DNA of 64,000 nucleotides. It comes from Gemmobacter caeruleus. GTDB taxonomy: Bacteria > Pseudomonadota > Alphaproteobacteria > Rhodobacterales > Rhodobacteraceae. The notes beneath the pieces are model-generated. The model made no database searches and was not told where the DNA came from. It saw only the letters and a list, made by a program, of their open reading frames with translations. This document shows, in pieces, positions 4,340 to 56,951 of the stretch (its first letter is position 1; each line of letters begins with the position of its first letter). The position numbers and the translations under genes were made by a program. Location of the stretch: positions 248,001 to 312,000 of the forward strand of contig NZ_VKKX01000022.1 in the NCBI RefSeq assembly GCF_008271655.1, in the 5' to 3' direction.

Positions 4340-4340
4340 G

Positions 4341-5138: not shown

Positions 5139-5151
5139 GCGTCGCGCGGCG

Positions 5152-5217: not shown

Positions 5218-5337
5218 GCGGCATTCGCCGGCGCCACGATCACAAATGACGGAAATCTGCGGGCAAGCGACGGATGCGGGTTTGACAAGGCGCCGCGCTG
5301 CGGCAATGGATGGGAAAAACCCCATGCGAGCAAGGCC

Positions 5338-9988: not shown

Positions 9989-10405
9989 ATGCCCCACCCC
10001 GTCCTGTCCGACCTGTCGGACCACCTGACGATCCGCGAGATGTGCGACGCCTTCGAGGTCACGCCGCGCACCCTGCGTTTCTATGAACAGAAGGAACTTC
10101 TGTTCCCGATCCGTCAGGGCACCAAACGCCTGTTCACCCGCCGCGACCGCGCGCGGCTGAAGCTGATCCTGCGCGGCAAGCGCTTTGGCTTCAGTCTCGA
10201 GGATATCCGGCAATTGCTCGACATGTATGACCGCGACCCGGGCCAGCAAGAGGCGCAGCTCAAGCGCACCTATGAACTGGCGCAGGACCGGCTGCGCGCC
10301 ATGGAGGCGCAGCGCGACGAGCTGGACGAGGCGATCACCGACCTCAAGGCCCAGATGGCCTGGGGTCAGGACATGATGGCCACCCTGCGCAAGGGCCGGG
10401 CCTGA
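9989..10405 (+). CDS. MerR-family transcriptional regulator (probable beta-oxidation regulator)
   Basis: This 138-residue MerR protein has a DNA-binding domain beginning at [20 protein letters not shown] (about residues 13-32), then [20 protein letters not shown] and a long C-terminal helix (residues 90-130) for dimerisation. There is no metal-binding cysteine. It resembles the regulators that stand before acyl-CoA dehydrogenase genes in alphaproteobacteria. The acyl-CoA dehydrogenase gene starts 44 bases downstream on the same strand. The dense ACGT palindromes upstream, with similar repeats before the thiolase gene, suggest that it controls itself and this cluster. Acyl-CoA as effector is inference. 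Confidence 0.87.
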
Positions 10406-10449
10406 ACCCATTCGCGGGCCGACCGGCCCGTTCAAGACCCAGGGAGAGA

Positions 10450-12228
10450 ATGATGACCCGCTATACCGCCCCCGTGAAGGACATGCAGTTCCTGTTGCAG
10501 GACGTGCTGAAGGTGACCGAAACCGGCATTCCCGGCTACGAGGATCTGGATGCCGGCTTCACCTCGGCGGTGCTGGAGGAGGCGGGCAAGGTCGCGTCCG
10601 AAGTGCTGGCGCCGCTGAATGCCGTGGGCGACGCGCAAGGCTGCGTGCTGGAAAACGGCGTGGTGCGGACGCCCGAAGGGTTCAAGGCGGCCTTCGAAGC
10701 GATGAAGGAAGGCGGCTGGACCGCGCTCGATTGCGACCCCGATTATGGCGGCCAGGGCCTGCCCTATCTGATGGGCACCGCCGTGGGCGAAATCTTCGTC
10801 TCGGCCAACATGGCCTTCAACATGTATCAGGGCCTGACCCATGGCGCCTATTCGGCGATCCATGCCCATGGCACCGATGACCAGAAGGCCACCTATCTGC
10901 CCAAAATGGTGTCCTGCGACTGGACCGGCACGATGAACCTGACCGAGCCGCATTGCGGCACCGATCTGGGCCTGCTGCGCACCAAGGCGGAACCGCAGGC
11001 CGATGGCAGCTATCGCATCACCGGGCAAAAGATCTTCATCTCTGCCGGCGATCACGACATGGCCGAGAACATCATCCATCTGGTGCTGGCCAAGGCGCCG
11101 GGCGGCGGCGAGGGCACCAAGGGCATCTCGCTGTTCATCGTGCCGAAATTCATGGTGAAGGCGGATGGCAGCCTGGGCGAGCGCAACGCGGTCTCGGTCG
11201 GCAAGATCGAGGAAAAGATGGGCATCCACGGCAATGCGACCTGCGTGCTGAACTATGACGGCGCGACCGGCTTCCTGCTGGGCGAGTTGCACAAGGGCAT
11301 GCGCGCCATGTTCACCATGATGAACGAGGCGCGGCTGGGCGTGGGCCTGCAAGGCTATGCCGTGGCCGAGGCCGCCTATCAGAACGCGCTGGATTACGCG
11401 AAGGACCGCCTGCAAGGGCGCGACGTGACCGGGGTCAAGAACCCGACCGGCGCCGCCGACCCGCTGATCGTGCATCCCGATATCCGCCGCAACCTGATGG
11501 ACCAGAAATCCTTTGTGGAAGGCGCCCGCGCCCTGACCTTCTGGGGCGCCTCGCTGATCGACCGCCACCACCGGCAGGGCGATGCGGCGGCGGACGGGCT
11601 GATTGGCCTGCTGACCCCGGTCATCAAGGGCTTCCAGACCGACAAGGGCTTTGAAATGGCGGTGCAGGCCCAGCAAATCTATGGCGGGCATGGCTATATC
11701 GAGGAACAGGGCATGTCGCAATTCGTGCGCGATGCCCGGATCGCGATGATCTATGAAGGAGCGAACGGGGTGCAGGCGCTGGATCTGGTGGGGCGCAAGC
11801 TGGCCGCCGATGGCGGTAAGCATGTGATGGCGTTTTTCGAGATGGTGAAGGCCGAATGCAAGGCGCATGACGGCGATGCCCGCATGGCGCCCTTTACCGA
11901 CGCGCTGAAGGCGGCCTCGAAACAGATGCAGGCGGCGGGCATGTTCTTCATGCAGAACGGGATGAAGAACCCCAATGCGGCGCTGGCCGGGTCTTATGAC
12001 TTCATGCATCTGATGGGCCATGTCTGCCTCGGCCTGATGTGGACCCGCATGGCAAAGGCGTCTTTCGCCGCCCTCGACGCGGGCAGCGACGATCCCGCCT
12101 TCCATGAAACCAAGATCGCGACGGGCCGCTATTACATGGCCCGCCAGCTTCCGGCCTGCGCCACCCATCTGGCGCGGATCGAAAGCGGCGCCGATCCGGT
12201 GATGGCCCTGGCGGCCGAAGCGTTCTAA
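10450..12228 (+). CDS. Acyl-CoA dehydrogenase with C-terminal extension (DmdC/FadE-like)
   Basis: This 592-residue flavoenzyme should introduce the alpha-beta double bond into acyl-CoA. It is longer than classical 380-residue ACADs and has the extra C-terminal domain of the FadE5/DmdC-type branch. Visible features are the [20 protein letters not shown] flavin/substrate block near residue 160, the [14 protein letters not shown] segment, and [16 protein letters not shown] with the adjacent catalytic-loop sequence [14 protein letters not shown] near residue 435. The ATG at 10450 is almost touching the AGGGAGAG ribosome-binding site, so the in-frame ATG at 10453 may be the actual start. It is the first structural gene of the beta-oxidation cluster. 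Confidence 0.92.
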
Positions 12229-22628: not shown

Positions 22629-23065
22629 CCTTCCGCGATGCCACCCGCGCCGATGTGCCCGCCATCGTGGCGCTGCTGGCCGATGATCCGCTGGGACAGA
22701 ACCGCGAAGGGGGCGACCTCGCCCCCTATCTCGCCGCCTTCGACACCATCGCGGCGCTGCCCCTGCACCAGATCATCGTGGGCGAAATCGCGGGCCGCAT
22801 CGTCGCCACCTGCCAGCTCACCATCCTGCACGGCCTGTCGCGCCAGGGCATGACCCGCGCCCTGCTGGAGGCCGTGCGCACCGCGCCCGACCTGCGCAGC
22901 CAGGGCATCGGCGCCGCCCTCATGGCCGAGGTCGAGACCCGCGCCCGCGCCGCCGGCGCCCAGATCCTGCAACTCACCACCGACAAGACCCGGCTGCGGG
23001 CGCATGCCTTCTATGACCGGCTGGGATACGCGCCCACGCATCTGGGCTACAAGAAGACGCTCTGA
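22622..23065 (+). CDS. GNAT family N-acetyltransferase
   Basis: This 147-residue protein is a Gcn5-related acetyltransferase. The acetyl-CoA pyrophosphate loop is visible as [18 protein letters not shown] (about residues 96-113). The motif B portion reads [20 protein letters not shown]. It overlaps the 3' end of trpF by seven bases and ends just before a repeat element, so it probably belongs to the same transcript as trpF. The substrate is unknown. Confidence 0.87.
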
Positions 23066-28646: not shown

Positions 28647-30704
28647 TCAGTTCATGTCCCGCAGCAGCCGGCCATGGCGGCGCACCTCGGCCACCACCTC
28701 GCCAAAGCTGGTCAGCCCGCGCCCGCGCAGCATCGGCATCAGCTTGAGAAAGGCATCCGCCGTGGCGACGGTGTCGCCGATGGCGGTATGGCGCGCCTCT
28801 TCGGGGATGGTGATGTCAAGCCGGTGGGTCAGCGCATCCAGGCTATGCACCTCGTGCTGGCCGAAGATCACCGCCGACAGCAGCACCGTATCCAGCACCG
28901 GATTGTCAAAACGCACGCCGGTCACGCCCTCTTTCCGGCGCAGGAAGTCCAGATCGAAGGGCGCGTTATGCGCGACCAGCACCGCACCATCGGCAAAGGC
29001 ATGAAAGGCGCGGCCCACCTCGGCGATGCCGGGGGCGCCGGCGACCATGGCATCGGTGATCCCATGCACCGTGGTCGAGGCGGGCGGGATCGGCCGGCCC
29101 GGATTGACCAGCGTGTCAAACACCTCGGCCGCGACGCGCTTGCCGTTCACGATGCGCACGGCGGCGATCTGCACGATCTCGTCGCCCTGCGCGGGCAAAA
29201 GGCCGGTGGTTTCGGTGTCGAAGACGACATAGGTCAGATCTTCCAGCCTTGTATCCGACACGGCGGCGTTGCGGGCCTTGGACAGAAGATCGAAGTCATA
29301 GACCACCGCCCGCGCCACAGGGGCCGGGCGCGGGCCCGCGCGCCGCGCGGCGCGCAGCGGCAGCACCACGGCCTGTTGACCGGGCCGCCCCTCGGGCCAG
29401 ATCTCGGTGGCGTGCGCCGCCAGCACCGACCGTCCAGTCGTATCGGGCAGGCCATCCTCCAGCGGCTGATCCAGCCAATGTTCCAACTGACCCACGGGCA
29501 GCGCCTCGCCTTGCCAGCCCAGCGTGATGCGGGCATCGGCGCCGCGTTCGGTCAGGTCCAGCGTGAAGGCCCGCAGCCCCCGCGCCTCGGCCAGTGCGGC
29601 GCCCAGACGGCCCGCCAGGCCGACGATTTCAAACCCGTTGCAGCGCAGCAGCAGCGGCGCGACCTCGCCCACATGCACTGACAGGCCCTGTGCCTCCATC
29701 CGCGCCGCGATGCCATCGACAAGGTCCGAGGCCCGGATCGGCGCCAGCGGCACCGCCTCGGCCCGGCCCTCGTCATGGCGGCGGGTCAGTTCGGTCACTG
29801 CGGCGCCCAGCCGCTCCACCTCGTCGCGCAGGGCGCGCTCCATTTGCGGCGGCAGCGCCTCGCCCTCGGGCAGCACGGCGAACAGCGTGCCCAGATTGGC
29901 CGCCGGGCGGCGGATGCGGTCAAAGGTCTCGGCCAGCAGCGCCTCGCGGCGCGACAGTTGCGCCAGATCGGCGGTCACGTCGCGCAGGGTCAGCACATAG
30001 CCGCCCGCCTCCAGCAACCGCATGCGCCCCGCCAGCACCCGCGCCCCCGACCGCGTGGTGCAAAGAATGTCTGATGCGGCATCGGGGTCGCCCGCCTCTT
30101 GCAGGCGCTGATGGGCGTGGCGCAGCGGGCCGTCATGCAGATAGTCGAACAGCCGCCGGTCCAGCCCCGGCGCACCGGCACCGCCCAGCATGTCGGCCGC
30201 GGTGCCGTTATAAAAGGCCAGCTGGTGATCGGCGCTGCACAGCAGCACCCCCACCGGCACGTCGGACAGAAGCGCCTCCAGCCGCGCCTTTTCGGCTGAC
30301 AGGCGGGTGGTCTCGCGCGCGACCGCCTCGGCCAGGGCATTGCGGGTTTCCGACAGGCTGGCGGCGGCGGCGGTCGCCGCAGGGGCCAGATCGCCCAGAT
30401 AACGCGCCAGCGCCGCGTCCATCTCGCCCGAGACATCGGAATGCGCCCGCGCCCGCAAGGCGCCCGACAGGATGTCGATGGGCTTCGCGACATTCAGGTC
30501 GAACAGATACCAGACCCAGGTGACCAGCCCCAGCACCACCAGCCCGGCCAGCATGCCGACCTGCACAAAGGCGTTCAGCGTCTCGGGCGTGCCCAGCTGG
30601 CGGTAGCCGAAGACCAGCCCCCCCGCCAGCCCGGCCAGCGCACCAAGCGCCAGCCCCGCAAAGATCAGGAAGATGCGCAGCCGCAGGCTCAGCTTGTGCA
30701 ACAT
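28647..30704 (-). CDS. Two-TM PAS sensor with degenerate kinase core fused to a DnaQ-like 3'-5' exonuclease
   Basis: This 685-residue fusion protein begins with two transmembrane helices (about residues 11-34 and 48-67). A HAMP-like linker, a coiled coil and a PAS domain (about 143-245) follow. The histidine-kinase dimerisation region reads FDRIRRP (residues 261-267), where the phospho-accepting His of the H-E-x-R-x-P box is Asp. The ATPase region (about 310-465) lacks recognisable N, G1 and G2 boxes. From residue 492 there is a complete DEDDh exonuclease: VVFDTETTG (ExoI), HNAPFDLDFL (ExoII) and HTAIGDTVATADA (ExoIII). It is the last gene of a tight minus-strand run with a stand-alone receiver three bases upstream. 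Ligand, nucleic acid substrate and role are unknown. Confidence 0.88.
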   Translation of the reverse strand: MLHKLSLRLRIFLIFAGLALGALAGLAGGLVFGYRQLGTPETLNAFVQVGMLAGLVVLGLVTWVWYLFDLNVAKPIDILSGALRARAHSDVSGEMDAALARYLGDLAPAATAAAASLSETRNALAEAVARETTRLSAEKARLEALLSDVPVGVLLCSADHQLAFYNGTAADMLGGAGAPGLDRRLFDYLHDGPLRHAHQRLQEAGDPDAASDILCTTRSGARVLAGRMRLLEAGGYVLTLRDVTADLAQLSRREALLAETFDRIRRPAANLGTLFAVLPEGEALPPQMERALRDEVERLGAAVTELTRRHDEGRAEAVPLAPIRASDLVDGIAARMEAQGLSVHVGEVAPLLLRCNGFEIVGLAGRLGAALAEARGLRAFTLDLTERGADARITLGWQGEALPVGQLEHWLDQPLEDGLPDTTGRSVLAAHATEIWPEGRPGQQAVVLPLRAARRAGPRPAPVARAVVYDFDLLSKARNAAVSDTRLEDLTYVVFDTETTGLLPAQGDEIVQIAAVRIVNGKRVAAEVFDTLVNPGRPIPPASTTVHGITDAMVAGAPGIAEVGRAFHAFADGAVLVAHNAPFDLDFLRRKEGVTGVRFDNPVLDTVLLSAVIFGQHEVHSLDALTHRLDITIPEEARHTAIGDTVATADAFLKLMPMLRGRGLTSFGEVVAEVRRHGRLLRDMN

Positions 30705-30707
30705 GGC

Positions 30708-31097
30708 TCAGCCCTCGCCGGTCAGCAGGCGCCGGACCTCGGTGCGCAATTCCTTCAATTCAAACGGTTTCGAGATGAAACCATCGGCGCCAAGCGCCAG
30801 CCCCTTCTGCCGCTCGATCGTGGATCCGCGCGCGGTCATCATCAGGATCTTCACATCTGCCAGCGCCGGGTCCAGCCGGACCGACTGGCAGATCTCGTAG
30901 CCCGAGACTTCGGGCAGCATCACATCGAGCAGCACCAGATCGGGATGCGTCTCGCGGATGCGCGGCAGGGCCTCGGCGCCATTGGCAACGCGGTCATGCT
31001 GATAGCCCTCGCGCATCATCAGGTAATTGAGCGCGAGCGCGATATTGTCCTCGTCCTCCACCACAAGAATGCGGTGTTGCCTCCCCCCTTCGGCCAT
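30708..31097 (-). CDS. Stand-alone receiver-domain response regulator
   Basis: This 129-residue single-domain CheY-like protein has all catalytic residues: the acidic cluster in VVEDED near residue 14, the phospho-acceptor Asp in LVLLDVMLP near residue 58, MMTARG and the Lys in FISKPFELKE. It has no output domain. Its stop is three bases before the start of the sensor-exonuclease gene, and it starts just after the small membrane protein gene. Because the adjacent sensor has lost its phospho-accepting His, the kinase acting on this receiver may be elsewhere. Confidence 0.92.
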   Translation of the reverse strand: MAEGGRQHRILVVEDEDNIALALNYLMMREGYQHDRVANGAEALPRIRETHPDLVLLDVMLPEVSGYEICQSVRLDPALADVKILMMTARGSTIERQKGLALGADGFISKPFELKELRTEVRRLLTGEG

Positions 31098-31616
31098 TCA
31101 TCCCTCCCGGCAGGCTGCCTTCATGACCGGATCGTCAGCGGCCGCGGCTTGCCATTCGGCGCCCTGCAACACACCCTCGGGGGTGATCTCCACCCCCTCC
31201 ACGATCGCTACGCGCCGCTGACCGGCGCAATCCACCGCCAGAAACCCGTCCTCCACGGGCCGCCAGCGGGCAAAATTGTAGACATGCGCCAGACGCAGAT
31301 CCGGCTGGGCCGGATGCGGCGTCACCTTGCGGGTATCCAGCGCGAGGAACCGCGTGGTCAGCGGCGCGACAAAGCTCCAGGGGCGCAGGCCCTGCGGGGT
31401 CTCGTCGCGCCATACCACCTCGATCCCCTCGGGCAGTTCGGCCGAGACGCGGTCGAACCAGTCATATTCCAGCCAGACCGTCGTGCCGATCAGCCCGACC
31501 GCCGCCCCGAAGGGCATCGCCCATTTCGGCAAGCCCGGCACCAGCTTGCGCGCCAGCAGCACAAGCCCGGCACAGCCGATGGCGGCGATGATGGCGGCAA
31601 GGAATTCGTAGATCAT
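31098..31616 (-). CDS. Small membrane protein of unknown function in the symporter-regulation cluster
   Basis: This 172-residue protein has two N-terminal hydrophobic helices (about residues 4-24 and 30-49) and a soluble C-terminal domain of about 120 residues with a Trp-rich segment (VYNFARWRPVEDGFLAVDC). I do not recognise the family. It is tightly packed: its start is ten bases after the nucleotidyltransferase-like gene and its stop abuts the receiver gene start. This indicates a component of the same membrane signalling unit. Confidence 0.78.
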   Translation of the reverse strand: MIYEFLAAIIAAIGCAGLVLLARKLVPGLPKWAMPFGAAVGLIGTTVWLEYDWFDRVSAELPEGIEVVWRDETPQGLRPWSFVAPLTTRFLALDTRKVTPHPAQPDLRLAHVYNFARWRPVEDGFLAVDCAGQRRVAIVEGVEITPEGVLQGAEWQAAAADDPVMKAACREG

Positions 31617-31625
31617 TCACATCCC

Positions 31626-33455
31626 TCAGGAGCGGGCGCCACGGGCCGAGCCGATGGCGGATTGCATGGTGCGCACCACGACAAAGGCGTCGCGCAGGTG
31701 GCTGCGTTCAAAATCGGAAAGATCGTAGGGCGCAAGGAAATTATCGGGGGCACGGCCCGACCGGATCAGCCGCGCCTGATTTTCCAGCCGGGTCTGGGCG
31801 ATCAGGTCATAGGCCTCGATCAGGTCGCGCGCGCCCGAGGTCGATATGACGCCGGCCTGTTCCGCGCCCTCCAGCCGGGCGCGGGTATTGGCGGCATCCA
31901 GTTGCCCGATCAGCGCATAGACCCGGCCCAGATCGGTCACCGGCACCACGCCATTATGCTTCATGTCGATATGGTTCTTGTGCTCGCCCGAGCGGATGGT
32001 GGCAAAGCCGCGCAGCAGGCCCAGCGGCGGGGTGTGCTTGAGGCTGTTCTGGATCATATGGGCGACAAAGATCGAATTCTGCGCGGCCTTTTCCAGTGTT
32101 TCGCCCTGCAAGTCGCGGAACAGCGAGGCCTGGCCGCCGATCGGGCGCAGGTCGAACATCACGCTGGCCAGCATCTGCGCCATCGGGTCGGGCTTTGCGA
32201 TCCAGCCCTCGAAATAGCTGCGCCAGGTGGATTGGCGCGCGCGCCAGCGCGGGTTGGTCGCCATCATGTCGCCCGGGCAATAGACATAGCCGCAGGCGTT
32301 CAGCCCGTCACAGACAAAGGTCGCCAGACGCTCGAACCAGGCCATGTCGGCCTCGGTCGCGGCATCGTCGATGATCAGGCAATTGTCCTGATCCGACACG
32401 CCGGTCTGTTCCTGCCGGCCCTGACTGCCGCAGGCGGCCCAGACATAGGGCACCGGCGCGGGGCCAAGCTCGGCCTCGGCCAGCGCGATCAGGCGGCGGG
32501 TCACGGTATCGGCAATGTCGGTGATCAGCCGCGTCACCACCTCATGCGCGTTGTTGCCGCCCACCAATTGCACCAGCAGTCGGGGAATGCGGGCGGTGAC
32601 GGCGGCCATGTCCTCCACCGTGTCGGCAATGGCCGCGTCGCGCACCAGTTGCGCCGAACTGACGGCCTGGAACCGGGTGATGTCGGTCTGCGTCACCATG
32701 CCGACCAGCCGGCCATCCTCGACCACCGGCAGATGACCGATGCGGCGTTCCAGCATGACATGCAGGATGTCCGACCCCAGACTGTCGGGCGTCAGGCTGA
32801 CCGGATCGGCGGTCATCACCTGCGCCACCGGCCCGGCCGGGTCCATCCCGCCGGCCAGCACCTTGTTCGTCATGTCGCGGGTGGTGACGATGCCCAGAAA
32901 GCGCCCCTCCTCCACCACGCCCAGCGAGGAGACATGCGCATCGCGCATCTTCTGCGCGGCGGCGCGGATCGTCTCGGACGGAGCGACGGTGATCGGGCGG
33001 CGCGCCATCAGATCGCCCACCTTCTGCACCGTCAGATCGTTGCGCCGCCCCTCGGCGCTGTTGCGCCCGCGATTGAAGAACCGCTCAAAGGCCGGGAAAT
33101 CGGCGATCAGCCGGCGGAAGATGTCGGTGGGCAGCAGCAGCAGCGTGGCGTCCTCGGTCACGCGCGCCGTGGTCACGGCCTGGCCATCGCGCATCAGCCC
33201 GCGTTCGCCAAAGCTGTTGCGCGGCCCGAGCAGCGAGACGAGGCCGCCCGAAGGCTCCAGCACCTCGACCGAGCCGCGCTTGATCAGGTAAAGGCCCTTC
33301 AGCGGCTCGCCCGCGTGATAGACCTCTTCGCCGGAGGTGAAATCCCTGCGGCTGAAGGAAAGGGCGACACGCGCCATCTCGTCCTGCGGCAGGCTGTCAT
33401 AGGGATGCACGCTTTCCAGAAAGGCCAGAACGGCAGGATCGGGGGTATGGGGCAT
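31626..33455 (-). CDS. Cyclic-nucleotide-binding/CBS/DUF294 nucleotidyltransferase-like protein
   Basis: This roughly 609-residue protein has, in order, a cNMP-binding beta-roll (about residues 15-125, with LYLIKRGSVEVLE and FGERGLM) and a CBS pair (about 145-265). A GlnD-like nucleotidyltransferase domain follows, with GSQGRQEQTGVSDQDN at about 343-358, and then the helical DUF294 C-terminal domain. The metal-binding D-x-D of the transferase site is present. An ATG at 33464 directly follows its AAAGG ribosome-binding site, so the ATG at 33455 with nine-base spacing is the likelier start. Proteins with this architecture commonly accompany ActP/SSS-type acetate symporters. The substrate, and whether it transfers nucleotides, is unknown. 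Confidence 0.9.
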   Translation of the reverse strand: MPHTPDPAVLAFLESVHPYDSLPQDEMARVALSFSRRDFTSGEEVYHAGEPLKGLYLIKRGSVEVLEPSGGLVSLLGPRNSFGERGLMRDGQAVTTARVTEDATLLLLPTDIFRRLIADFPAFERFFNRGRNSAEGRRNDLTVQKVGDLMARRPITVAPSETIRAAAQKMRDAHVSSLGVVEEGRFLGIVTTRDMTNKVLAGGMDPAGPVAQVMTADPVSLTPDSLGSDILHVMLERRIGHLPVVEDGRLVGMVTQTDITRFQAVSSAQLVRDAAIADTVEDMAAVTARIPRLLVQLVGGNNAHEVVTRLITDIADTVTRRLIALAEAELGPAPVPYVWAACGSQGRQEQTGVSDQDNCLIIDDAATEADMAWFERLATFVCDGLNACGYVYCPGDMMATNPRWRARQSTWRSYFEGWIAKPDPMAQMLASVMFDLRPIGGQASLFRDLQGETLEKAAQNSIFVAHMIQNSLKHTPPLGLLRGFATIRSGEHKNHIDMKHNGVVPVTDLGRVYALIGQLDAANTRARLEGAEQAGVISTSGARDLIEAYDLIAQTRLENQARLIRSGRAPDNFLAPYDLSDFERSHLRDAFVVVRTMQSAIGSARGARS

Positions 33456-33480
33456 CACCGTCATCCTTTGGGGCGGACAC

Positions 33481-33496
33481 GCCCCCCTTGGGGGGC
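33481..33496 (-). terminator. Hairpin between the symporter and nucleotidyltransferase-like genes
   Basis: GCCCCCC and GGGGGGC form a perfect seven-base-pair stem with only TT between them. It lies in the 110-base gap after the symporter stop and may attenuate transcription into the regulatory genes. Confidence 0.55.
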
Positions 33497-33574
33497 GCGC
33501 CGGGTTTCTGGCAGGGATCGGAGCCGGATTTTCCGTGGCGCGCCATGCGCCAGATCAAACCCGGCCCGAAACCA

Positions 33575-35524
33575 TCAATGCGCCTGGGCCGAACCGGCGC
33601 CTTTCGGCACGCGGATCGATTCCACCAGCTCCACCACATGCTGCGGCGGGGCCTTGGTCGCACCCGACACCACGAAGGCGGTCAGGAAGTTCATCACGGC
33701 GCCAATGGTGCCGATGGACAGCGGCGAAATACCGAAGAAGTAGTTCGCGGCGGTATCCGGCAGGTTGTTGGTGCCCGGGATGAAGAACCAGCCCTTGTAG
33801 ATGAAGATGTAGACCGAGGTGAAGATCAGACCCACCAGCATGCCGGCGATCGCGCCTTCCTTGTTGATGCGCTTGGAGAAGATGCCCATCATCAGAACCG
33901 GGAAGATCGTCGCGGCGGCCAGACCGAAGGCCAGGGCCACCACCTGCGCGGCAAAGCCGGGCGGGTTCAGACCCAGATAGGTCGCCACCACGATGGCACC
34001 GCCCATCGAGACGCGCGCCGCCAGCAGTTCGCCTTTTTCACTGATATTGGGGTTGATCGACCCCTTGATCAGGTCATGCGAGATCGCCGAGGAAATGGCG
34101 AGCAGCAGGCCCGCAGCGGTCGAAAGCGCGGCAGCCAGGGCGCCGGCGGCCACGATGGCGACCACCCAGCCCGGAAGGGCCGCGATTTCGGGGTTGGCCA
34201 GCACCATGATGTCGTTGTCAACCTTGGTGACTTCGTTGCCGGTCAGGCCCATTTCGGCAAAGGTCTTGCCCGAGGTGCCCACTTGCGCGGCGGCCAGCAG
34301 GCCTTCGCGGGCGGTGGTCAGTTCGGCGATCTTGGCCTCGATGCCGGCCTTGTCGGCCTCGGCAGCCTTGGCCAGCGCGGCCTTGGCCTCGCCCATGGCC
34401 TTGGTATTGGCGGCCAGGTCGGCGGGTTCGTTGACATACTGGATCATGCCGTCGCCGTTCAGGTCGGACATGGCCAGCAGGCCGGTTTTTTCCCAGGTGC
34501 GGATCCAGGACAGTTCAGGCTTGCTCTCGATATCGGCGCGGCTGATCGCCGGGCCCGAGAAGGCGCTGCCGGTCACCGCGGCGGGCCACATCGTCGTCGA
34601 AAGGTTCAGGCGCGCCATCGACCCCACGGCCGGAGCCACGGTGTAAAGCAGCGCGATGAACACCAGCGACCAGCCGGCCGAGGAACGGGCATCCGCCACT
34701 TTCGGCACGGTGAAGAAGCGGATGATGACGTGCGGCAGACCCGCGGTGCCGATCATCAGCGACATGGTGAACAGGAACATGTTGAAGTAGTTGGCGCTGT
34801 CGCCGGTATAGGCCTTGAAGCCCAGTTCGGTCACGACCGAGTCAAGCTTGGCCAGGAAGGTCATGTCGCCACCCGACGGCGCGTAAGAGCCGATCAGGCC
34901 GAGCTGCGGCAGGAAGCTGCCGGTCAGTTGCAGCGAGATGAACAGCGCCGGGATGGTATAGGCGATGATCAGCACGACATATTGCGCCACCTGGGTATAG
35001 GTGATGCCCTTCATGCCGCCCAGAACCGCATAGGCGAACACGATCGCCGCGCCAATATAGAGGCCGGTATCGGTCGAAACCTCCAGGAAGCGCGAGAAGG
35101 TCACGCCCACGCCGCGCATCTGGCCGATCACATAGGTCACCGAGATGACGATCAGGCAGATCACGGCCAGCAGACGCGCGCCGCCGGAATAGAAGCGGTC
35201 GCCGATGAATTCCGGCACGGTGAACTTGCCGAACTTGCGCAGATAGGGGGCAAGCAGCAGCGCCAGCAGCACATAGCCGCCGGTCCAGCCCATCAGGTAG
35301 GCCGAGGTTTCATAGCCGCCAAAGGCGATGATGCCGGCCATCGAGATGAAGGAGGCGGCCGACATCCAGTCAGCGCCGGTGGCCATGCCGTTCATGATCG
35401 GGTGAACACCCTGACCGGCGGCATAGAATTCCGCGGTGGAGCCGGCACGGGCCCAGACCGCGATCCCGATGTAGAGGGCAAAGGTGAGGCCCACCACAAT
35501 CAGGTTGAGGGTAAACTGATCCAT
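33575..35524 (-). CDS. Sodium:solute symporter, large subunit (VC_2705-like)
   Basis: This 649-residue SSS-family transporter is paired with a DUF4212 small subunit (gap 15 bases). Typical features are the ADWMSAASFISMAG segment near residue 51, the VPEFIGDRFYS block near 103, and IGTAGLPHVIIRFFTV near 258. Residues about 304-448 form a hydrophilic insertion with an EF-hand-like DLNGDGMIQYVNE (354-366) and an Ala/Lys/Glu-rich helix. The pairing matches the large/small 'Na_symport' type, whose relatives take up acetate or other short carboxylates. The neighbouring acs gene makes acetate or propionate a reasonable guess. Confidence 0.9.
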   Translation of the reverse strand: MDQFTLNLIVVGLTFALYIGIAVWARAGSTAEFYAAGQGVHPIMNGMATGADWMSAASFISMAGIIAFGGYETSAYLMGWTGGYVLLALLLAPYLRKFGKFTVPEFIGDRFYSGGARLLAVICLIVISVTYVIGQMRGVGVTFSRFLEVSTDTGLYIGAAIVFAYAVLGGMKGITYTQVAQYVVLIIAYTIPALFISLQLTGSFLPQLGLIGSYAPSGGDMTFLAKLDSVVTELGFKAYTGDSANYFNMFLFTMSLMIGTAGLPHVIIRFFTVPKVADARSSAGWSLVFIALLYTVAPAVGSMARLNLSTTMWPAAVTGSAFSGPAISRADIESKPELSWIRTWEKTGLLAMSDLNGDGMIQYVNEPADLAANTKAMGEAKAALAKAAEADKAGIEAKIAELTTAREGLLAAAQVGTSGKTFAEMGLTGNEVTKVDNDIMVLANPEIAALPGWVVAIVAAGALAAALSTAAGLLLAISSAISHDLIKGSINPNISEKGELLAARVSMGGAIVVATYLGLNPPGFAAQVVALAFGLAAATIFPVLMMGIFSKRINKEGAIAGMLVGLIFTSVYIFIYKGWFFIPGTNNLPDTAANYFFGISPLSIGTIGAVMNFLTAFVVSGATKAPPQHVVELVESIRVPKGAGSAQAH

Positions 35525-35539
35525 CTGTCCCCTGCTCCC

Positions 35540-35797
35540 TTATTCGTCCACGCCGTGTTCTTTGTCGAGCTTGTTCATCTTGGCCGCGTAGGCAAAGATC
35601 AGCACGAGGAACACGTAGATCGACCCGTTCTGGGCCATCCAGAACCCGAGATCGGCGCCGCCGACCATGATGCCTTTGAGTGCCGGCCGCAGAATGATGC
35701 CGAGCCCGAAGGAACACACGAACCAGATCACCAGCGAGATGGTGATGACCCGGATATTCGCGGCCCAATAGGCGTTCGACGATGTCTTGTCCGCCAT
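35540..35797 (-). CDS. DUF4212 symporter small subunit
   Basis: This 85-residue protein has two transmembrane helices, about residues 18-38 and 52-72, with the family sequence YWAANIRVITISLVIWF near the start. It matches the DUF4212 family of small subunits that accompany VC_2705-like symporters. It precedes the large subunit by 15 bases and has a GGGAGTAG ribosome-binding site. The small subunit is probably needed for assembly or stability of the transporter. Confidence 0.92.
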   Translation of the reverse strand: MADKTSSNAYWAANIRVITISLVIWFVCSFGLGIILRPALKGIMVGGADLGFWMAQNGSIYVFLVLIFAYAAKMNKLDKEHGVDE

Positions 35798-35866: not shown

Positions 35867-36553
35867 TTAGGCTGAAACGCGCGTCACGATGGCTGACAGG
35901 CCGGCGCGGATATCGGCGATGGCACCCATCGCGTCGATCCGTTCCAGCACGCCCTTGCCATCGTAATAGGCGATCAGCGGCGCCGTCTGGGCGTGATAGG
36001 CCACCAGCCTTTCACGCACAGTCTCGGCGTTGTCGTCGGCGCGGCGCTTGAACGCCGTGCCGCCGCATTTGTCGCAAGTGCCCGCCGTGGCGGGCTGCTT
36101 GAATTCGTCGTGATAGCCTTCGCCGCAGCCGGCGCAGGTGTAGCGGCCCGAGACGCGGCCCACCATGGCCTCGTCATCGACCTCCAGGCTGATGGCCGCG
36201 GTCACCTTCTGGCCGGCCTGCGCCAGCAGCCCGTCCAGCGCTGCCGCCTGCCCCGCGGTGCGGGGAAAGCCGTCCAGAATGACGCCGCGCGCCACATCGG
36301 GCGCCGCCATGCGGTCGCGCAGGATCGCCAGAACGATGTCGTCGGAGACGAGCTGCCCCGCCTCCATCACCGCCTTGGCCTGCCGGCCGGCCTCGGTGCC
36401 CTCGGCCACGGCCGCGCGCAGCAGGTCGCCGGTCGAAAGCTGGACCAGACCGAAATCTTCCTCCAGCATCCGCGCCTGCGTGCCCTTCCCGGCGCCCGGA
36501 GGGCCGAGAAGGATCAGGACGGCGGGCGTGGTCATGGTTGCCGCATCGGTCAT
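35867..36553 (-). CDS. adk: Adenylate kinase, zinc-lid type
   Basis: This roughly 228-residue enzyme interconverts AMP + ATP and 2 ADP. The P-loop is LGPPGAGKGTQA, STGDLLRAAVAEGT binds AMP and LDGFPRTAGQA is the NMP-binding signature. The long lid has two Cys pairs (TCAGCGEGYH and TCDKCGG), a probable Zn site. The acs stop overlaps an upstream ATG (36559); the ATG at 36553 has better spacing (nine bases) from AAGGG, and one at 36535 is also possible. Alphaproteobacteria usually carry adk in the ribosomal protein operon, so this may be a second copy dedicated to recycling AMP made by Acs. Confidence 0.9.
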   Translation of the reverse strand: MTDAATMTTPAVLILLGPPGAGKGTQARMLEEDFGLVQLSTGDLLRAAVAEGTEAGRQAKAVMEAGQLVSDDIVLAILRDRMAAPDVARGVILDGFPRTAGQAAALDGLLAQAGQKVTAAISLEVDDEAMVGRVSGRYTCAGCGEGYHDEFKQPATAGTCDKCGGTAFKRRADDNAETVRERLVAYHAQTAPLIAYYDGKGVLERIDAMGAIADIRAGLSAIVTRVSA

Positions 36554-36558
36554 GCGCA

Positions 36559-38523
36559 TCAGCCCTTGTTGCCGCGATTGGCGATCAGGTCATCGACCAC
36601 CGACGGATCGGCCAGGGTCGAGGTATCGCCCAGCGAACCGAAGTCGTTTTCGGCGATCTTGCGCAGGATGCGGCGCATGATCTTGCCCGAGCGGGTCTTG
36701 GGCAGGCCCGGCGACCACTGGATGATGTCGGGCGAGGCGATCGGGCCGATCTCGGTGCGGACCCATTTCACCAGATCCTTGCGCAGATCCTCGGTGGGTT
36801 CGATGCCGTTCATCAGGGTGACATAGGCGTAGATGCCCTGCCCCTTGATGTCATGCGGATAGCCGACCACGGCGGCCTCGGCCACGGCGGCATGGGCGAC
36901 CAGCGCGCTTTCCACCTCGGCGGTGCCCATCCGGTGACCGGAGACGTTGATCACGTCATCCACCCGGCCGGTGATCCAGATATACCCATCCTTGTCGCGG
37001 CGGCAGCCGTCGCCGGTGAAGTAATAGCCGCGATACTGGGCGAAATACGCCTCCTGGAAGCGGTCGTGATCGCCCCAGAGCGTGCGCATCTGCCCCGGCC
37101 AGCTGTCCGAGATGCACAGCACGCCCTCGGCCTCCACCTCGTCCTGGCGCTTGGCGGTGCTGGCATCCAGCACGACGGGCTTGACGCCAAAGAAGGGCAG
37201 CGTGGCCGAGCCGGGCTTGGTCGGCGTGGCATAGGGCAGCGGCGTGATCATGTGGCCGCCGGTCTCGGTCTGCCAGAAGGTATCGACGATCGGGCATTTG
37301 CCCTTGCCGACATGGGTGTCATACCAGGTCCAGGCCTCGGGGTTGATCGGCTCGCCCACCGAACCCAGCACGCGCAGTTTGGACAGGTCGTATTTCTCCA
37401 CCCATTCCGGGCCCTGGCCCATCAGCGAGCGGATGGCGGTCGGCGCGGTGTAGAACTGGGTCACGGCGTGCTTTTCGCAGACCTCCCAGAACCGGCCGGC
37501 ATCGGGGAAGGTCGGCACGCCCTCGAACATGATCGTGGTGGCGCCATTGGCCAGCGGACCGTAGACGATATAGCTGTGGCCCGTGACCCAACCCACATCG
37601 GCGGTGCACCAGAACACGTCCCCTTCCTGATAGTCGAAGGTGTATTGGTGGGTCATCGCGGCATAGACCAGATAACCGCCGGTGGTATGCACCACGCCCT
37701 TCGGCTTGCCGGTCGAACCCGAGGTATAGAGGATGAACAGCGGATCTTCGGCGCCCATCGGGCGCGGCGGGCATTCCGGGCTGACCATGTCCATCATCAG
37801 CTTGACGTCCACGTCGCGGCCCTGGATCCAGCTCGTCTGGTCGCCGGTATGCTTGACCACGAGGCAGCGCACCTTGTCGGAGCAATGCAGCAGCGCCGCG
37901 TCGGTATTGGCCTTGAGCGGCGTGCGCCGGCCACCGCGCGGGGCGCTGTCGGCGGTGATGACGATCTTGGCGCCGGAATCGTTGATCCGGTTGGCCAGCG
38001 CATCGGGCGAAAAGCCGGCAAAGACGATGGAATGGATGGCACCGATCCGGGCGCAGGCCAGCATCGCATAGGCGGCCTCGGGGATCATCGGCAGATAGAT
38101 CACCACGCGGTCGCCCCGCATCACGCCCTGCGACAGCAGGACGTTGGCCATGCGGTTCACCTTTTCGGACAGTTCCTTGTAGGTGATGTGCAGGGCCGGG
38201 GTCTTGGGATCATCGGGTTCCCAGATGATCGCGGTTTGCAGCGCGCGATCCTTCAGGTGGCGGTCGATGCAGTTCACGCTGGCATTCAGCACGCCATCCT
38301 CGAACCACTTGATGCTGACCTTGCCAAAGGTGAAGTCGGTATTCTTCACCTTGGTATAGGGCTTGATCCAGTCAAGCCGCTGGCCCTCGCGGCCCCAGAA
38401 GGTATCGGGGTCGTCGATCGACTCGTTATACATCGCACGGTATTTCGCGGTATCGGCATGGGCCTTGTCGAAACCGGTGGGCACGTCGCGCACGGTCGGC
38501 GCGGCTGCGGGCTGCTGGGTCAT
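36559..38523 (-). CDS. acs: Acetyl-CoA synthetase (AMP-forming)
   Basis: This 654-residue enzyme converts acetate, ATP and CoA to acetyl-CoA, AMP and PPi. The adenylation motif is [15 protein letters not shown] near residue 257, [11 protein letters not shown] supports acetyl-AMP binding, and [15 protein letters not shown] is the hinge/A8 region. The C-terminal [11 protein letters not shown] has the Lys that is acetylated in regulated Acs enzymes. The start at 38523 follows a GGGGGAG ribosome-binding site and gives the usual N-terminus. adk overlaps its end, and the symporter genes follow on the same strand, forming an acetate uptake and activation group. The AT-rich upstream region suggests strong regulation. 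Confidence 0.95.
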
Positions 38524-38858
38524 CAGGCTCTCCCCCCTCGTCGTAAACCGAAAGCCCGCCCCGAAATCGCGGCCAGGCATCCATCCCTGCGCATACTGTA
38601 AACTATTTTCGCCAAATGGCGTAACCCTTTTTATTGATTGATTTTTTCTGTAAATTCATTGACTGAAATATCTGGAAATCTGTAAAGACAGAAAATTTCG
38701 CCTTCAACTTGGCGTGATATTTCAAAGCCCTAGCGGTTTCTTGCCAAAGGCCGCCCGCGGGGGCTGTTGCCGGGTGATGGCCCGGGGGCCGCCCGGCGGG
38801 GTGCCGGGCCGGTTTATGCAAGGGCTACTCGGTATCGCACAGAAGGGTGGCGGACGAA
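38524..38858 (-). promoter_or_regulatory. AT-rich regulatory region upstream of acs; no gene
   Basis: The 335 bases between acs and the SulP gene contain no credible gene. About 38581-38730 is strongly AT-rich against the local background. It holds three CTGTAAA repeats (38596-38602, 38648-38654, 38680-38686; TTTACAG on the acs strand), a palindrome CGCCA-AA-TGGCG (38610-38621) and a related CGCC..GGCG pair (38699-38714). A GC-rich hairpin GGCCCGG/CCGGGCC (38779-38785 with 38804-38810) near the SulP end probably terminates that gene. Activator binding for acs is the likely purpose. Confidence 0.6.
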
Positions 38859-54838: not shown

Positions 54839-56299
54839 TTGCCCCGCATGATCCCGCCCCCCGTCCTGCCCGCCTGCCTGGCCCGCGATGCCTGGTGGCT
54901 GGACAGCCCGCCCCCCGGCACCGCAACGCCCGCGCCCGATCTGCCCCGGCGCGGACCGGGCCGGGTTGTCGGCCTGCTGGTGCTGATCGTGCTGGGCGAT
55001 GCGCTGTTCTATGGCCAGCGCCCCGGCCTGTCGCTGGTGCTTTATGCGGCGGCGGTGTTCGCGGTGACGCTGACCGTGGCGCCGCGCGGGGCAGAATGGC
55101 GGCGGCCGGCGCTGCTGCTGGCGGTCGCGGCGCTGCCGGTGATCGACCATGCGCAGCCGCTGGCGGTGCTGTTCCTGCTGGCCGGGCTGCTGGTGGCGAT
55201 CGTCTGGGCGCGGCGCCCGAGCGATCTGGCCGCCGGGGTTCTGGGCCTGTTGCGGCACCTGCCACTGGCCGGGCCACGCGCGCTGATGGCCGGGATACGT
55301 CAGCGCGGCCTGCGGCGCGGATGGCCGCGCCCCGCCGCGCTGTGGCGGGGATGGGCCTTGCCACTGGGCGGAACGCTGATCCTGATCGCGCTCTTGTCCG
55401 AGGCGAACCCGATCCTGTCGGGCTGGCTGAATGCGCTGCGCCTGCCCGATGTCGATCTGGGCGCGCTGCTGCGGCGCGTGATGTTCTGGGCCGGGCTGGC
55501 ACTGGTGGTCTGGCCGCTGCTGTTGCCCGCGCCGCCGCGGGCACTGCCGGCCCTGCCCCGCCTGCGCGGCACCGGCTTTACCGCCGAGGCCGTGCGCCGC
55601 GCGCTGATCCTGTTCAATGCGGCGCTGCTGCTGCAAACCGGGCTGGATGCGGTTTACCTCTGGGGCGGGGCCGCGCTGCCGCCGGGCATGTCGGCGGCGG
55701 AATATGCGCATCGCGGCGCCTATCCGCTTTTGGCGACCGCATTGCTGGCGGGGGCTTTTGCGCTGGCGGCGCGGCCCTTTCTGGCCGAACAGCGCTTCCT
55801 GCGTCCGCTGATGGCGCTGTGGCTGGGCCAGAACATCGCGCTGACCCTGTCGGCGCTGTTGCGGCTGGATCACTATGTCGCGCTGTATGGCCTGACCTAT
55901 CTGCGGGCCTATGCGGCGATCTGGATGGGGCTGGTGGCCCTGGGCCTCGGGCTGACCTTCTGGCAAATCTGGCGCGGACGGTCGAACCGCTGGCTGCTGA
56001 TGCGCTGCACAGGGCTGGGGCTGACCACGCTTTACGCCTGCTGCTTTGTGAATTTCGCGGCGGTGGTGGCACGGGTCAACCTGTCGCGCAGCATGGTCGA
56101 TCTGGAATATACCTGCGGCCTTGGCCCGATGGCCGCCGCCGAAATGGCCCGCGCACCGCTCGGGCGGCTTTGCGTGACCGAAGGGCCGCAGATCGCCGAT
56201 TGGCGCGAATGGGGGTTTCGCGGCTGGCGTGTCTCCCGCTACATCGGGGTAGCACCGGGTTACATGGGATGGGCCGATGAAAATCCTCGTGGTCGATGA
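54839..56299 (+). CDS. DUF4173 family integral membrane protein
   Basis: This 486-residue protein has about 10-12 hydrophobic helices and the DUF4173 hallmark region around LILFNAALLLQTGLDAVYLW and AAEYAHRGAYPLLATALL (about residues 250-310). It appears to start at TTG (54839), since CAGGAG lies six bases upstream, while the first in-frame ATG (54848) would be 15 bases away. Its last 23 bases overlap the next gene, an OmpR-type regulator, so the membrane protein and two-component system are translationally linked. It may be part of the sensory input; no activity is known. Confidence 0.85.
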   Translation: MPRMIPPPVLPACLARDAWWLDSPPPGTATPAPDLPRRGPGRVVGLLVLIVLGDALFYGQRPGLSLVLYAAAVFAVTLTVAPRGAEWRRPALLLAVAALPVIDHAQPLAVLFLLAGLLVAIVWARRPSDLAAGVLGLLRHLPLAGPRALMAGIRQRGLRRGWPRPAALWRGWALPLGGTLILIALLSEANPILSGWLNALRLPDVDLGALLRRVMFWAGLALVVWPLLLPAPPRALPALPRLRGTGFTAEAVRRALILFNAALLLQTGLDAVYLWGGAALPPGMSAAEYAHRGAYPLLATALLAGAFALAARPFLAEQRFLRPLMALWLGQNIALTLSALLRLDHYVALYGLTYLRAYAAIWMGLVALGLGLTFWQIWRGRSNRWLLMRCTGLGLTTLYACCFVNFAAVVARVNLSRSMVDLEYTCGLGPMAAAEMARAPLGRLCVTEGPQIADWREWGFRGWRVSRYIGVAPGYMGWADENPRGR

Positions 56300-56951
56300 C
56301 GATCCGCGCCTGCGCGAGGTGGTTACGATCGCCCTGCATCGCGCGGGCTTCACCACGATCACCGCCGCCGATGGCCAGGCCGCGCTGACCCATGCCGCGC
56401 GCGAGGCGCCCGATCTGGTGGTGCTGGATATCGGCCTGCCCGAGATGGACGGGCTGGAGGTCTGCCGCCGGCTGCGCCAGAAATCCGACCTGCCGATCCT
56501 GTTCCTGACCGCCCGCGATGACGAGATCGACCGCATTCTGGGCCTGGAACTGGGGGCCGACGATTACGTCACCAAGCCGTTTTCGCCCCGCGAACTGGTC
56601 GCGCGGATTCGCGCCATTCTCAAGCGCAGCACTGGTGCCGCCGGTGCCGACCGACCGCTCTGCCATGGTGCGATCACGCTGGACCGGGGGCGCCATGCCT
56701 GCCTTGTGCAGGGCGCGCCCGTCGATCTGACCGCGACCGAGATGGCGATCCTCGCCACGCTGATGCGCGCGCCCGAACGGGTGTTCCCCCGCCCGGCCCT
56801 GACCGATGCGATCTGGGGCGCCGGCAGCCCGGTTTCCGACCGCACGCTGGACAGCCACCTGCGCAACCTGCGCCGCAAACTGGCCGAGGCCGGCGCGCCC
56901 GAGGCGATCCGCAGCCTGCATGGCGTGGGTCTGGGCATGGGCACGGCATGA
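56277..56951 (+). CDS. OmpR-family response regulator
   Basis: This 224-residue protein has an N-terminal receiver with VVDDDPRLREV, the phospho-acceptor Asp in LVVLDIGLPEMDG (about residue 51), LTARDDE and VTKPFSPRE. A C-terminal winged helix of the OmpR/PhoB type follows (about residues 130-224). All receiver residues are intact. Its gene starts inside the DUF4173 gene and overlaps the histidine kinase gene by four bases. It should be phosphorylated by that kinase. Confidence 0.94.
   Translation: MKILVVDDDPRLREVVTIALHRAGFTTITAADGQAALTHAAREAPDLVVLDIGLPEMDGLEVCRRLRQKSDLPILFLTARDDEIDRILGLELGADDYVTKPFSPRELVARIRAILKRSTGAAGADRPLCHGAITLDRGRHACLVQGAPVDLTATEMAILATLMRAPERVFPRPALTDAIWGAGSPVSDRTLDSHLRNLRRKLAEAGAPEAIRSLHGVGLGMGTA

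Follow-up and report, generated by a model that had tools for sequence, protein, structure and literature searches.

A DUF294 nucleotidyltransferase and a pseudokinase exonuclease in a symporter locus of Gemmobacter caeruleus: a possible coupling of carbon uptake to enzyme control

Main

In a 64,000-nucleotide stretch of Gemmobacter caeruleus DNA, hereafter the window, genes for a putative DUF294-type nucleotidyltransferase and for a DEDDh exonuclease lie on one strand with an SSS symporter and a lone receiver. These parts often travel together in relatives, and the locus may therefore be a largely undescribed coupling of carbon uptake to enzyme control. Computation finds the pairing and the active sites conserved, the kinase residues of the exonuclease protein lost, the receiver intact and, in the loci of some relatives, an SSS domain fused to a histidine kinase (SSS-HK). 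New here is the TM-PAS-pseudo-histidine-kinase-exonuclease architecture, which is devoid of the phospho-His. The reading that we favour, tentatively, is a signalling module around acetate and pyruvate uptake in which a symporter-kinase would act through the receiver on the dead-kinase exonuclease, itself opposing a GlnE-like nucleotidyltransferase.

Layout of the locus

All genes of the locus are on the minus strand. The acetyl-CoA synthetase gene acs (36559..38580; PF00501, PF13193 and PF16177) overlaps by one base with adk (35867..36559; PF00406 with the lid PF05191), which encodes the second adenylate kinase of the genome, the other full match being at G000:C1:372521-373012. Both lie upstream of the genes for a DUF4212 small symporter subunit (35540..35797; PF13937, E = 1e-32; TIGR03647) and an SSS (SLC5) symporter of the VC_2705 family (33575..35524; TIGR03648, E = 6e-243). 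After 110 bases follows the gene for a cNMP-CBS-CBS-DUF294-DUF294_C protein (31626..33464; PF00027, two PF00571, PF03445 at E = 2e-47 and PF10335 at E = 2e-43) and, 9 bases on, that for a small family-less protein with two N-terminal hydrophobic or TM stretches, read by eye (31098..31616). A lone receiver (30708..31097; PF00072) is encoded immediately after it, with a gap of 0 bases, and 3 bases separate the receiver gene from that of a 685-residue TM-TM-(HAMP-like)-PAS-pseudo-histidine-kinase-DEDDh exonuclease (28647..30704; RNase_T at E = 3e-35, residues 493-652), in which the TM and HAMP-like labels were read by eye and the PAS domain scores below the Pfam cut-off.

The six genes from DUF4212 to the exonuclease had been reported in an earlier note as standing on one strand in this order, the last four within 0-10 bases of each other, and the coordinates bear out both statements. 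That note's description of the last product as a PAS sensor fused to a DEDDh exonuclease is right about the fusion and incomplete otherwise, as it omits a degenerate histidine kinase (DHp and CA) at about residues 244-450.

Among the named loci of relatives, acs is present at 48 of 80, and adk at 46 of those 48; these 80 are the best of 583 relatives, so this sample leans to close kin.

A recurrent pairing

We surveyed 199 Pseudomonadota genomes (the census); a DEDDh-type exonuclease is encoded on the same strand within 1.5 kb of 93 of their 105 DUF294 ORFs, and the pairing is found in 30 of the 31 families. The window supplied the seeds for the census profiles, and these were then trained on the regions that the census itself covers; the 105 include both ORFs of locus L121, where DUF294 is spread over two. 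As a background, 31 genomes of about 109 Mb together (rounded sizes summed) hold 89 RNase_T matches at E ≤ 1e-10, so that by chance fewer than one of the 105 ORFs would be expected to have one within 1.5 kb. The association named in the earlier note is thus a recurrent one and extends beyond close relatives, which rules out a merely local pairing.

Two natural single-chain fusions, RNase_T-CBS-CBS-DUF294-DUF294_C, occur in other Alphaproteobacteria (L127 and L130). The core pair is also present at least once each in Bacteroidota and Bacillota, in one record apiece, from Hymenobacter and Cytobacillus, in genomic contexts that differ from that of the window. Of 61 plasmid records, eight regions were inspected: seven have an annotated exonuclease in the locus, and in the eighth a gene annotated as hypothetical scores with the exonuclease and pseudokinase profiles. 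Seen in 30 of 31 families, as fusions, and also in regions where no SSS or acs gene was found, the pairing points to a joint job.

The DUF294_C domain itself has a strong match in 75 of the 199 Pseudomonadota genomes, the source genome included, a count that leaves out three PF10335 matches (E = 9e-24, 1.4e-20 and 2.5e-18) and all those with E above 1e-6. The number of genomes over the cut-off, 80 of 199, is higher because several of the left-out matches with E above 1e-6 pass it.

The DUF294 protein as a predicted nucleotidyltransferase

The window protein scores 161.4 bits with PF03445 and 148.5 bits with PF10335, against curated cut-offs of 21 and 22.5, and carries the motif G-S-x-x-R-x-E...D-Q-D-N. 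The G-S and D-x-D elements are kept in 104 of the 105 census ORFs; a family-wide loss of the active site, which the earlier note had named as an argument against a joint system, is thereby ruled out. Residue 438 (domain position 150), which would be the third ligand of the site, is acidic in 104 of 105 ORFs (Asp in 99, Glu in 5). Judged by these residues, the protein has the predicted active site of a polymerase-beta-type nucleotidyltransferase.

The AF2 model has a mean pLDDT of 87. Among the 50 Foldseek matches listed for the nucleotidyltransferase half, the nearest solved folds are those of protein AMP transferases: the GlnE N-half (1v4a, TMt 0.53) and C-half (3k7d, 0.44-0.45) and an AMP-transferring effector (6yx5, TMt 0.67). 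By sequence the link to GlnE is weak (hhalign 46%, E = 2e-4, and 7.5%), and the best 60 of 249 phmmer matches to solved structures include CBS and cNMP-binding neighbours. DUF294_C has been grouped with the C-terminal domains of GlnD and GlnE (PMC3710099).

The exonuclease and its pseudo-histidine-kinase part

The window exonuclease has all DEDDh residues (D-E ... D ... H-D), with Asp as the middle acid; this residue, D584, is invariant in 46 of 46 exonucleases of the window's type. The outer D, E, H and D are present in 98-99 of 100 census exonucleases, and the middle acid is Asp in 66, Glu in 32 and another residue in 2 of the 100, so that activity may differ across the family. Foldseek matches this part to DnaQ, PolC and RNase T, and phmmer against solved structures returned, at E ≤ 1e-8, exonucleases and polymerases only. 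Anti-phage defence was considered as the main reading and set aside: the protein is matched by PADLOC models of DEDDh type, namely CRISPR-associated DEDDh and PDC-S48, each covering its exonuclease domain, and PADLOC gave no match for the two further proteins scanned.

Between the PAS and exonuclease domains, the AF2 model places a DHp hairpin (244-276/286-317) and a CA-like domain (about 322-450), with most blocks of the core at high confidence. Its Foldseek matches include histidine kinases, DivL (structure 4q20) among them, and hhalign aligns it to the kinase core of SSS-HK over 208 columns (98.6%, E = 9e-16). The kinase residues are gone. At the phospho-His column the window has Asp, and of the 75 filled rows 64 have Asp or Glu; His occurs in two, both over-extended ORFs, and in none of the genuine rows. 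At the G1 Asp column, Trp fills 70 of 76 rows and Asp none. In nine genuine rows a His stands three positions ahead of the phospho-His; we read it as lying outside the H-box. We thus reject an active histidine kinase, and fold prediction and alignment together identify this part as a predicted pseudo-histidine kinase, a DHp and CA fold without phospho-His. The region is absent altogether, with the receiver, from 28 rows, many Rhodobacterales having dropped it whole.

The lone receiver and the symporter-kinase

The exonuclease gene has a lone receiver gene next to it at 64 of the 99 loci with a long exonuclease. Receivers beside such exonucleases keep the phospho-Asp58 (65/65), Lys110 (64/65) and Thr88 (61/65, with one Ser), and with the phospho-Asp, acidic pair, Thr/Ser and Lys in place the receiver is predicted to be phosphorylatable. 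The DHp stretch is kept at all 64 receiver-bearing loci. Its R-x-P-x-A motif is found at none of the 35 loci without a receiver and is missing also from 9 of the 64 with one. Receiver state changes only three times on the tree (sign test, p = 0.25-1), too few for a receiver-DHp coupling to attain significance. Six over-extended ORFs (L043, L054, L067, L085, L107 and L109) were kept out of these locus counts and of the tree test and are included in the alignment row counts.

The window has no CrbS-like SSS-HK-REC gene. In this genome the SSS-HK is at a separate locus (G000:C52:225295-227943) with a receiver of its own, to which the window receiver is similar (100 bits, 42%); for comparison, 38 of 63 other receivers matched the window receiver, with a median of 54 bits. 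CrbS-like SSS-HK-REC genes were found in 15 of 100 census regions (by query coverage; three were also scanned with Pfam). Among the 21 census loci with a pseudokinase exonuclease, an intact SSS-HK is present in 10, and SSS-HK is absent from 11. In Paracoccus versutus the order is DUF294, small protein, SSS-HK, receiver, exonuclease, and the SSS-HK is intact. The receiver's input into the system, as the earlier note had proposed it, is better supported for these findings: the exonuclease carries a dead kinase that a receiver could plausibly bind, and some relatives have the SSS-kinase fusion in the same locus.

The proximity of SSS symporters to the DUF294-exonuclease pair, also suggested there, is borne out in 64 of 100 census regions, against a background of 50 PF00474 matches in 31 genomes; 33 of the 100 have no SSS-type gene. 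In the source genome, PF00474 matches at E ≤ 1e-10 fall in one gene only, that of the window symporter, as two split matches. In 32 regions without SSS, no separate receptor-like cluster stood out from the few shared neighbours; four clusters could be named by Pfam.

Relation to known systems

Part of the locus has a described counterpart. In Pseudomonas (pp_0354/pp_0353 of P. putida, pflu5625 of P. fluorescens; the CrbS/R = MxtR/ErdR regulon), a cNMP/CBS/DUF294 gene and an RNase_T-type exonuclease gene form one operon, as here, tied to acetate and pyruvate use and in some pseudomonads adjoining actP/yjcH (PMC9927547, PMC5715377). In P. putida the acetate regulator ErdR directly targets pp_0354, and pp_0353 lies in the operon of pp_0354; the DUF294 mutant grows normally on succinate, acetate and pyruvate, and growth on pyruvate is slow in the exonuclease mutant as well as in the actP-I mutant (PMC9927547). 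The P. fluorescens DUF294 mutant (pflu5625) has no phenotype. The authors of these studies suggest mRNA decay by the exonuclease or nucleotidylation by pflu5625, without a mechanism. Unlike in the window, no receiver or pseudokinase is described for the Pseudomonas pair, and ActP/YjcH take the place of VC_2705/DUF4212. The locus had been put forward as possibly an undescribed system. For the pair this does not stand, as it is already an operon under an acetate regulator in Pseudomonas; it may for the receiver-pseudokinase-exonuclease arm. The open-access library searched contained nothing on that arm, on an exonuclease joined to a pseudokinase or on the module as a whole, and nothing on DUF4212 or on DUF294, exonuclease and acetate together; matches to 'DUF294' there include look-alike names, such as DUF2946 (PMC9426467).

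Other systems resemble single elements. DivK and DivL of Caulobacter are likewise a lone receiver and a PAS pseudo-histidine kinase without phospho-His (PMC4211667); DivL keeps its other kinase boxes, whereas the window pseudokinase has also lost the G1 Asp and has a covalently attached exonuclease as its output. GlnE resembles the DUF294 protein in the predicted fold of its nucleotidyltransferase and helical domains, but has two nucleotidyltransferase halves, writer and eraser (PMC12663964), where DUF294 has a single one, together with cNMP and CBS domains, and an exonuclease as its neighbour. RNase Z, a nuclease, is a deAMPylase of SelO substrates and so an eraser of protein AMPylation, though one with a metallo-beta-lactamase fold; the DEDDh enzyme RNase T, active on pre-tRNA, did not deAMPylate AMPylated protein (PMC12663964). 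In CrbS/R and RpuS/R, too, one protein joins an SSS domain and a histidine kinase, and acetate or pyruvate genes are controlled; their described output is transcription, in contrast to the lone receiver beside a pseudokinase exonuclease in the window.

Proposed mechanism and alternatives

In the signalling module that we favour, binding, phosphotransfer and chemistry are what we infer. The DUF294 protein would be a nucleotidyltransferase like GlnE, sensing nucleotide state through its cNMP and CBS domains, and its most likely act would be to attach a nucleotide, probably AMP, to some protein that belongs to the uptake/Acs pathway. The exonuclease, membrane-anchored here, would be its standing counterpart and most likely remove the mark or trim a nucleotide product; in the window's lineage it is carried on a PAS-pseudo-histidine-kinase that should be unable to phosphorylate. 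The lone receiver, phosphorylated by SSS-HK, would dock on the dead DHp helices and set how active the exonuclease is, in the manner of DivK~P on DivL. If true, DUF294 proteins gain a job and a partner enzyme, a nuclease output is added to receiver signalling by way of a pseudokinase, and DEDDh exonucleases become a new class of eraser, or an RNA trimmer, in carbon control. The step taken over from the earlier note, that the exonuclease undoes the work of the nucleotidyltransferase, is not supported by what is published: RNase T took no AMP off protein (PMC12663964), and in P. putida deletion of DUF294 left growth unimpaired, whereas loss of the exonuclease slowed growth on pyruvate (PMC9927547). 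That the complete new pathway exists, from SSS-HK phosphorylating the receiver, through its binding to the dead kinase, to a membrane exonuclease switched to erase the protein nucleotidylation of a cNMP/CBS-controlled GlnE-like enzyme, is unlikely.

The two enzymes could instead act on RNA, the nucleotidyltransferase extending tRNA or small-RNA 3' ends and the DEDDh enzyme trimming them, which would let carbon state set the stability or the translation of RNA. RNA 3' nucleotidyltransferases are found among polymerase-beta-type enzymes, and the predicted fold of the exonuclease resembles those of RNase T and DnaQ/PolC. Glu at the middle catalytic acid raises this reading and slightly lowers both the favoured module and the full pathway. 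RNase T, moreover, acts on pre-tRNA and not on AMPylated protein (PMC12663964). With Pfam reporting no RNA-binding domain, and with GlnE and 6yx5 as the nearest of the 50 fold matches listed and the DUF294_C grouping on the other side, we consider it rather unlikely. A nucleotidyltransferase that itself bears cNMP and CBS domains might also make a small nucleotide signal for them, destroyed by the exonuclease. DEDDh enzymes such as oligoribonuclease do degrade small nucleotides; the 50 fold matches listed include no cyclic-nucleotide synthase, however, and no receptor-like cluster stood out among the neighbours in regions without SSS, which makes a second messenger very improbable.

Nor need the parts share any chemistry: they might simply be co-regulated, the exonuclease degrading particular mRNAs when the carbon source shifts, a speculation of the P. 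putida authors, and DUF294 acting on something else. ErdR control of the operon and a phenotype in the exonuclease mutant only, of the two (PMC9927547), fit this account, which the pairing across families, the single-chain fusions and the pairs found without an SSS or acs gene render unlikely. As to the regulatory arm, the receiver may be an orphan of the usual kind, with no effect on the exonuclease, beside a pseudokinase that is a decaying relic. The kinase residues are gone, 28 rows have done without DHp, CA and receiver, and the co-loss rests on three tree changes; against this, the dead DHp is present at every receiver locus and missing or motif-less at all 35 without one, and most of the core is predicted at high confidence. 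We regard this reading as improbable.

Other features of the window

A scan of the window against Rfam at gathering thresholds returned no RNA family, and in the calcium-loop count the window is counted in both sets. The small protein (31098-31616) has no Pfam or NCBIfam match; its profile is matched by 12 census ORFs, that of the window included.

A conserved DUF294-exonuclease pair

In the window, acs (36559-38580) and adk (35867-36559) are followed on their own strand, the minus, by genes for DUF4212 (35540-35797), an SSS symporter (33575-35524), a cNMP-CBS-CBS-DUF294-DUF294_C protein (31626-33464), a small protein containing hydrophobic segments (31098-31616), a lone receiver (30708-31097) and the exonuclease protein (28647-30704), the last four separated by 9, 0 and 3 bases. 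The DUF294 protein is 88% identical to those of Gemmobacter caeni and G. lutimaris, its nearest named relatives among the best 80 of 583.

We searched 199 Pseudomonadota genomes for DUF294_C and retrieved 100 regions (6.5 to 20 kb) surrounding the strong matches; scoring this census with profiles seeded from the window gave 105 DUF294 ORFs with the window included (two are halves of one split gene). A DEDDh-type exonuclease lies on the same strand, no more than 1.5 kb away, for 93 of them; six have one elsewhere in the region and six have none, and the pairing is seen in 30 of 31 families, 46 of 48 genera and 70 of 75 genomes. Because RNase_T has 89 matches in 31 genomes (about 109 Mb, summed), less than one chance exonuclease neighbour is expected per 105 DUF294 ORFs. 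The recurrent association described in the earlier note is borne out. Two genomes of the same class encode a single-chain RNase_T-CBS-CBS-DUF294-DUF294_C fusion (regions L127 and L130). Both DUF294 cases seen beyond Pseudomonadota also have an exonuclease partner: on a Hymenobacter (Bacteroidota) plasmid, the exonuclease precedes DUF294 (4283-6893 of region L213) behind a LacI regulator and among glycoside hydrolases, and in Cytobacillus (Bacillota) DUF294 comes first. DUF294 and the exonuclease are a conserved pair.

In 104 of 105 ORFs the nucleotidyltransferase motif G-S-x-x-R-x-E ... D-Q-D-N is intact at G, S, R and the two Asp, so that a dead enzyme, raised earlier as grounds for rejecting a joint system, does not apply. 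In the exonucleases, the first D and E and the last H and D are present in 98-99 of 100 census sequences. At the middle acidic position 66 of them have Asp, 32 have Glu (for example, those of L042, L043, L050, L058 and L068) and 2 have another residue; the window exonuclease and 45 relatives of its type always have Asp there. Judging from this residue, the third of census exonucleases with an unusual middle acid may act differently.

Symporter and other neighbours

An SSS symporter occurs in 64 of the 100 census regions, acs in 28 and DUF4212 in 31, and 33 have no SSS-type gene; the PF00474 background is 50 matches in 31 genomes, some being split halves. Together with the pairing counts, this makes the exonuclease the near-constant partner of DUF294 and the symporter a frequent one. 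Seven regions with the pair and no SSS gene (L048, L051, L057, L059, L063, L065 and L066) share a neighbour cluster whose longest member, in L063, is a BCCT-type transporter; the pair may therefore serve other uptake systems too.

The window symporter carries a calcium-loop-like motif, DLNGDGMI, inside a hydrophilic insert. Of 100 SSS entries at DUF4212 loci, 92 contain the pattern D-x-[ND]-x-D-[GN]-x-[ILVF], versus 2 of 34 at loci without DUF4212, the window being included in both sets. Homologues of the small membrane protein lie between the symporter and a CrbS-like kinase gene, distant from the exonuclease, in five regions (L056, L061, L064, L085 and L112), a placement that suggests it may belong with one of those two.

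Among the named loci of the best 80 of 583 relatives, adk is present at 55 of 80 and at 46 of the 48 with acs; the window genome has two full adenylate kinase matches, one being the gene beside acs. Acs produces AMP, which a second Adk would recycle, and CBS domains often bind adenylates. This adenylate theme is compatible with the module and is no proof of it.

A pseudokinase and its likely receiver

Pfam recovers a sub-threshold PAS, a strong RNase_T and nothing more in the exonuclease protein; the region separating these two is a degenerate histidine kinase. We built a profile from 23 such regions and compared it by hhalign with the kinase core of 12 SSS-HK proteins, in which a symporter domain is fused to a histidine kinase; the alignment spans 208 columns (98.6%, E 9e-16). 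Of the 75 rows filled at the phospho-His column, 64 have an acid there (Asp in 36, Glu in 28), and the two with His are over-extended ORFs; nine genuine rows have His three residues earlier. At the G1 Asp column, 70 of 76 filled rows have Trp and none has Asp. The kinase residues are lost. In an AlphaFold2 model (46 sequences, mean pLDDT 86), two long N-terminal helices are followed by PAS, by a DHp hairpin made of residues 244-276 and 286-317, by a CA-like domain and by the exonuclease, although a pTM of 0.44 leaves the domain arrangement unsure. Among the 50 Foldseek matches listed are PAS-kinases (a WalK model, LOV-kinases and ThkA), NifL and DivL (described in PMC4211667), as well as DnaQ, PolC and RNase T.

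Many of the best 80 named loci lack a receiver and encode a TM-PAS-exonuclease that measures about 470-560 aa from stop to stop; others combine a receiver with a protein of about 680-810 aa, and a few Rhizobiaceae-like loci have the long form without a receiver. We compared 99 loci whose exonuclease ORF is long, excluding six over-extended ORFs and counting the DHp stretch as kept when more than 70% of 23 columns were filled. A receiver gene adjoins the exonuclease at 64; all 64 keep the stretch, 55 with an R-x-P-x-A motif. At the 35 loci without a receiver, the stretch is absent in 30 and present without the motif in five. With no more than three gains or losses of the receiver across the tree (sign test p 0.25-1), the coupling is suggestive, not significant; a receiver-pseudokinase link is likely. 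Exonuclease-linked receivers retain Asp58 (65/65) and Lys110 (64/65).

Candidate phosphoryl donor

On pTAV3 of Paracoccus versutus the order is DUF294, an 81-aa protein, SSS-HK, receiver and exonuclease, each gene overlapping the next by 4 bases. This 899-aa SSS-HK scores well over cut-off for HisKA and HATPase_c and just under for SSF; the same type occurs at 10 of the 21 pseudokinase-exonuclease loci in the census, and its H-box His and its N and G residues do not vary among the 12 examples compared. Fifteen other census regions carry a CrbS-like SSS-HK-REC. Of 61 genomes in the family, 56 have an SSS-HK match at E <= 1e-150; among the 56 is the window genome, whose one full-length copy lies at a separate locus (contig C52, 225295-227943), preceded by its own lone receiver and small protein. 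The window receiver is 42% identical (100 bits) to that receiver, and scores a median of 176 bits against 67 exonuclease-linked receivers versus 54 bits for the 38 matched among 63 others; three of those 38 reach 129-193 bits, at DUF294 loci that lack a scored long exonuclease ORF. Given this likeness and the SSS-HK at pseudokinase loci, it is plausible that SSS-HK phosphorylates the lone receiver.

Just downstream of the C52 set, a flagellar switch domain protein (FliMN_C, PF01052) is encoded on the plus strand (10052-11002 of the fetched region). Elsewhere in the window, a receiver-containing ORF (232 aa) overlaps a kinase-like ORF (482 aa) at 56253-57967 (plus strand); from profile matches only, these are perhaps a separate two-component pair.

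Putative nucleotide chemistry

The AlphaFold2 model of the DUF294 protein (mean pLDDT 87) matches, besides CBS and cNMP structures, the N-half (1v4a) and C-half (3k7d) of GlnE and 6yx5 among the 50 matches listed; all three are protein AMP transferases. Sequence comparison with the GlnE of the window genome is weak; PMC3710099 groups DUF294_C with GlnD and GlnE. GlnE comprises one writer and one eraser half, according to PMC12663964. Because DUF294 has one such half and its near-constant neighbour is an exonuclease, we prefer a reading in which the DUF294 protein would write a nucleotide mark and the exonuclease would erase it. Counting against that eraser, the same source (PMC12663964) reports deAMPylation as negative for RNase T and positive for RNase Z. 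The SSS-HK donor, AMP chemistry and eraser role are all inferences, and our confidence in them falls in that order.

According to PMC9927547, the DUF294 and exonuclease genes of Pseudomonas putida share one operon made up of pp_0354, an ErdR target, and pp_0353; loss of the exonuclease slows growth on pyruvate, as does loss of actP-I, and the DUF294 mutant has no defect. PMC5715377 gives no phenotype for pflu5625, the P. fluorescens DUF294 gene.

Outside the module, ARAGORN places a minus-strand tRNA-Phe of 102 bases, above the usual length, at 22677-22778 of the window.
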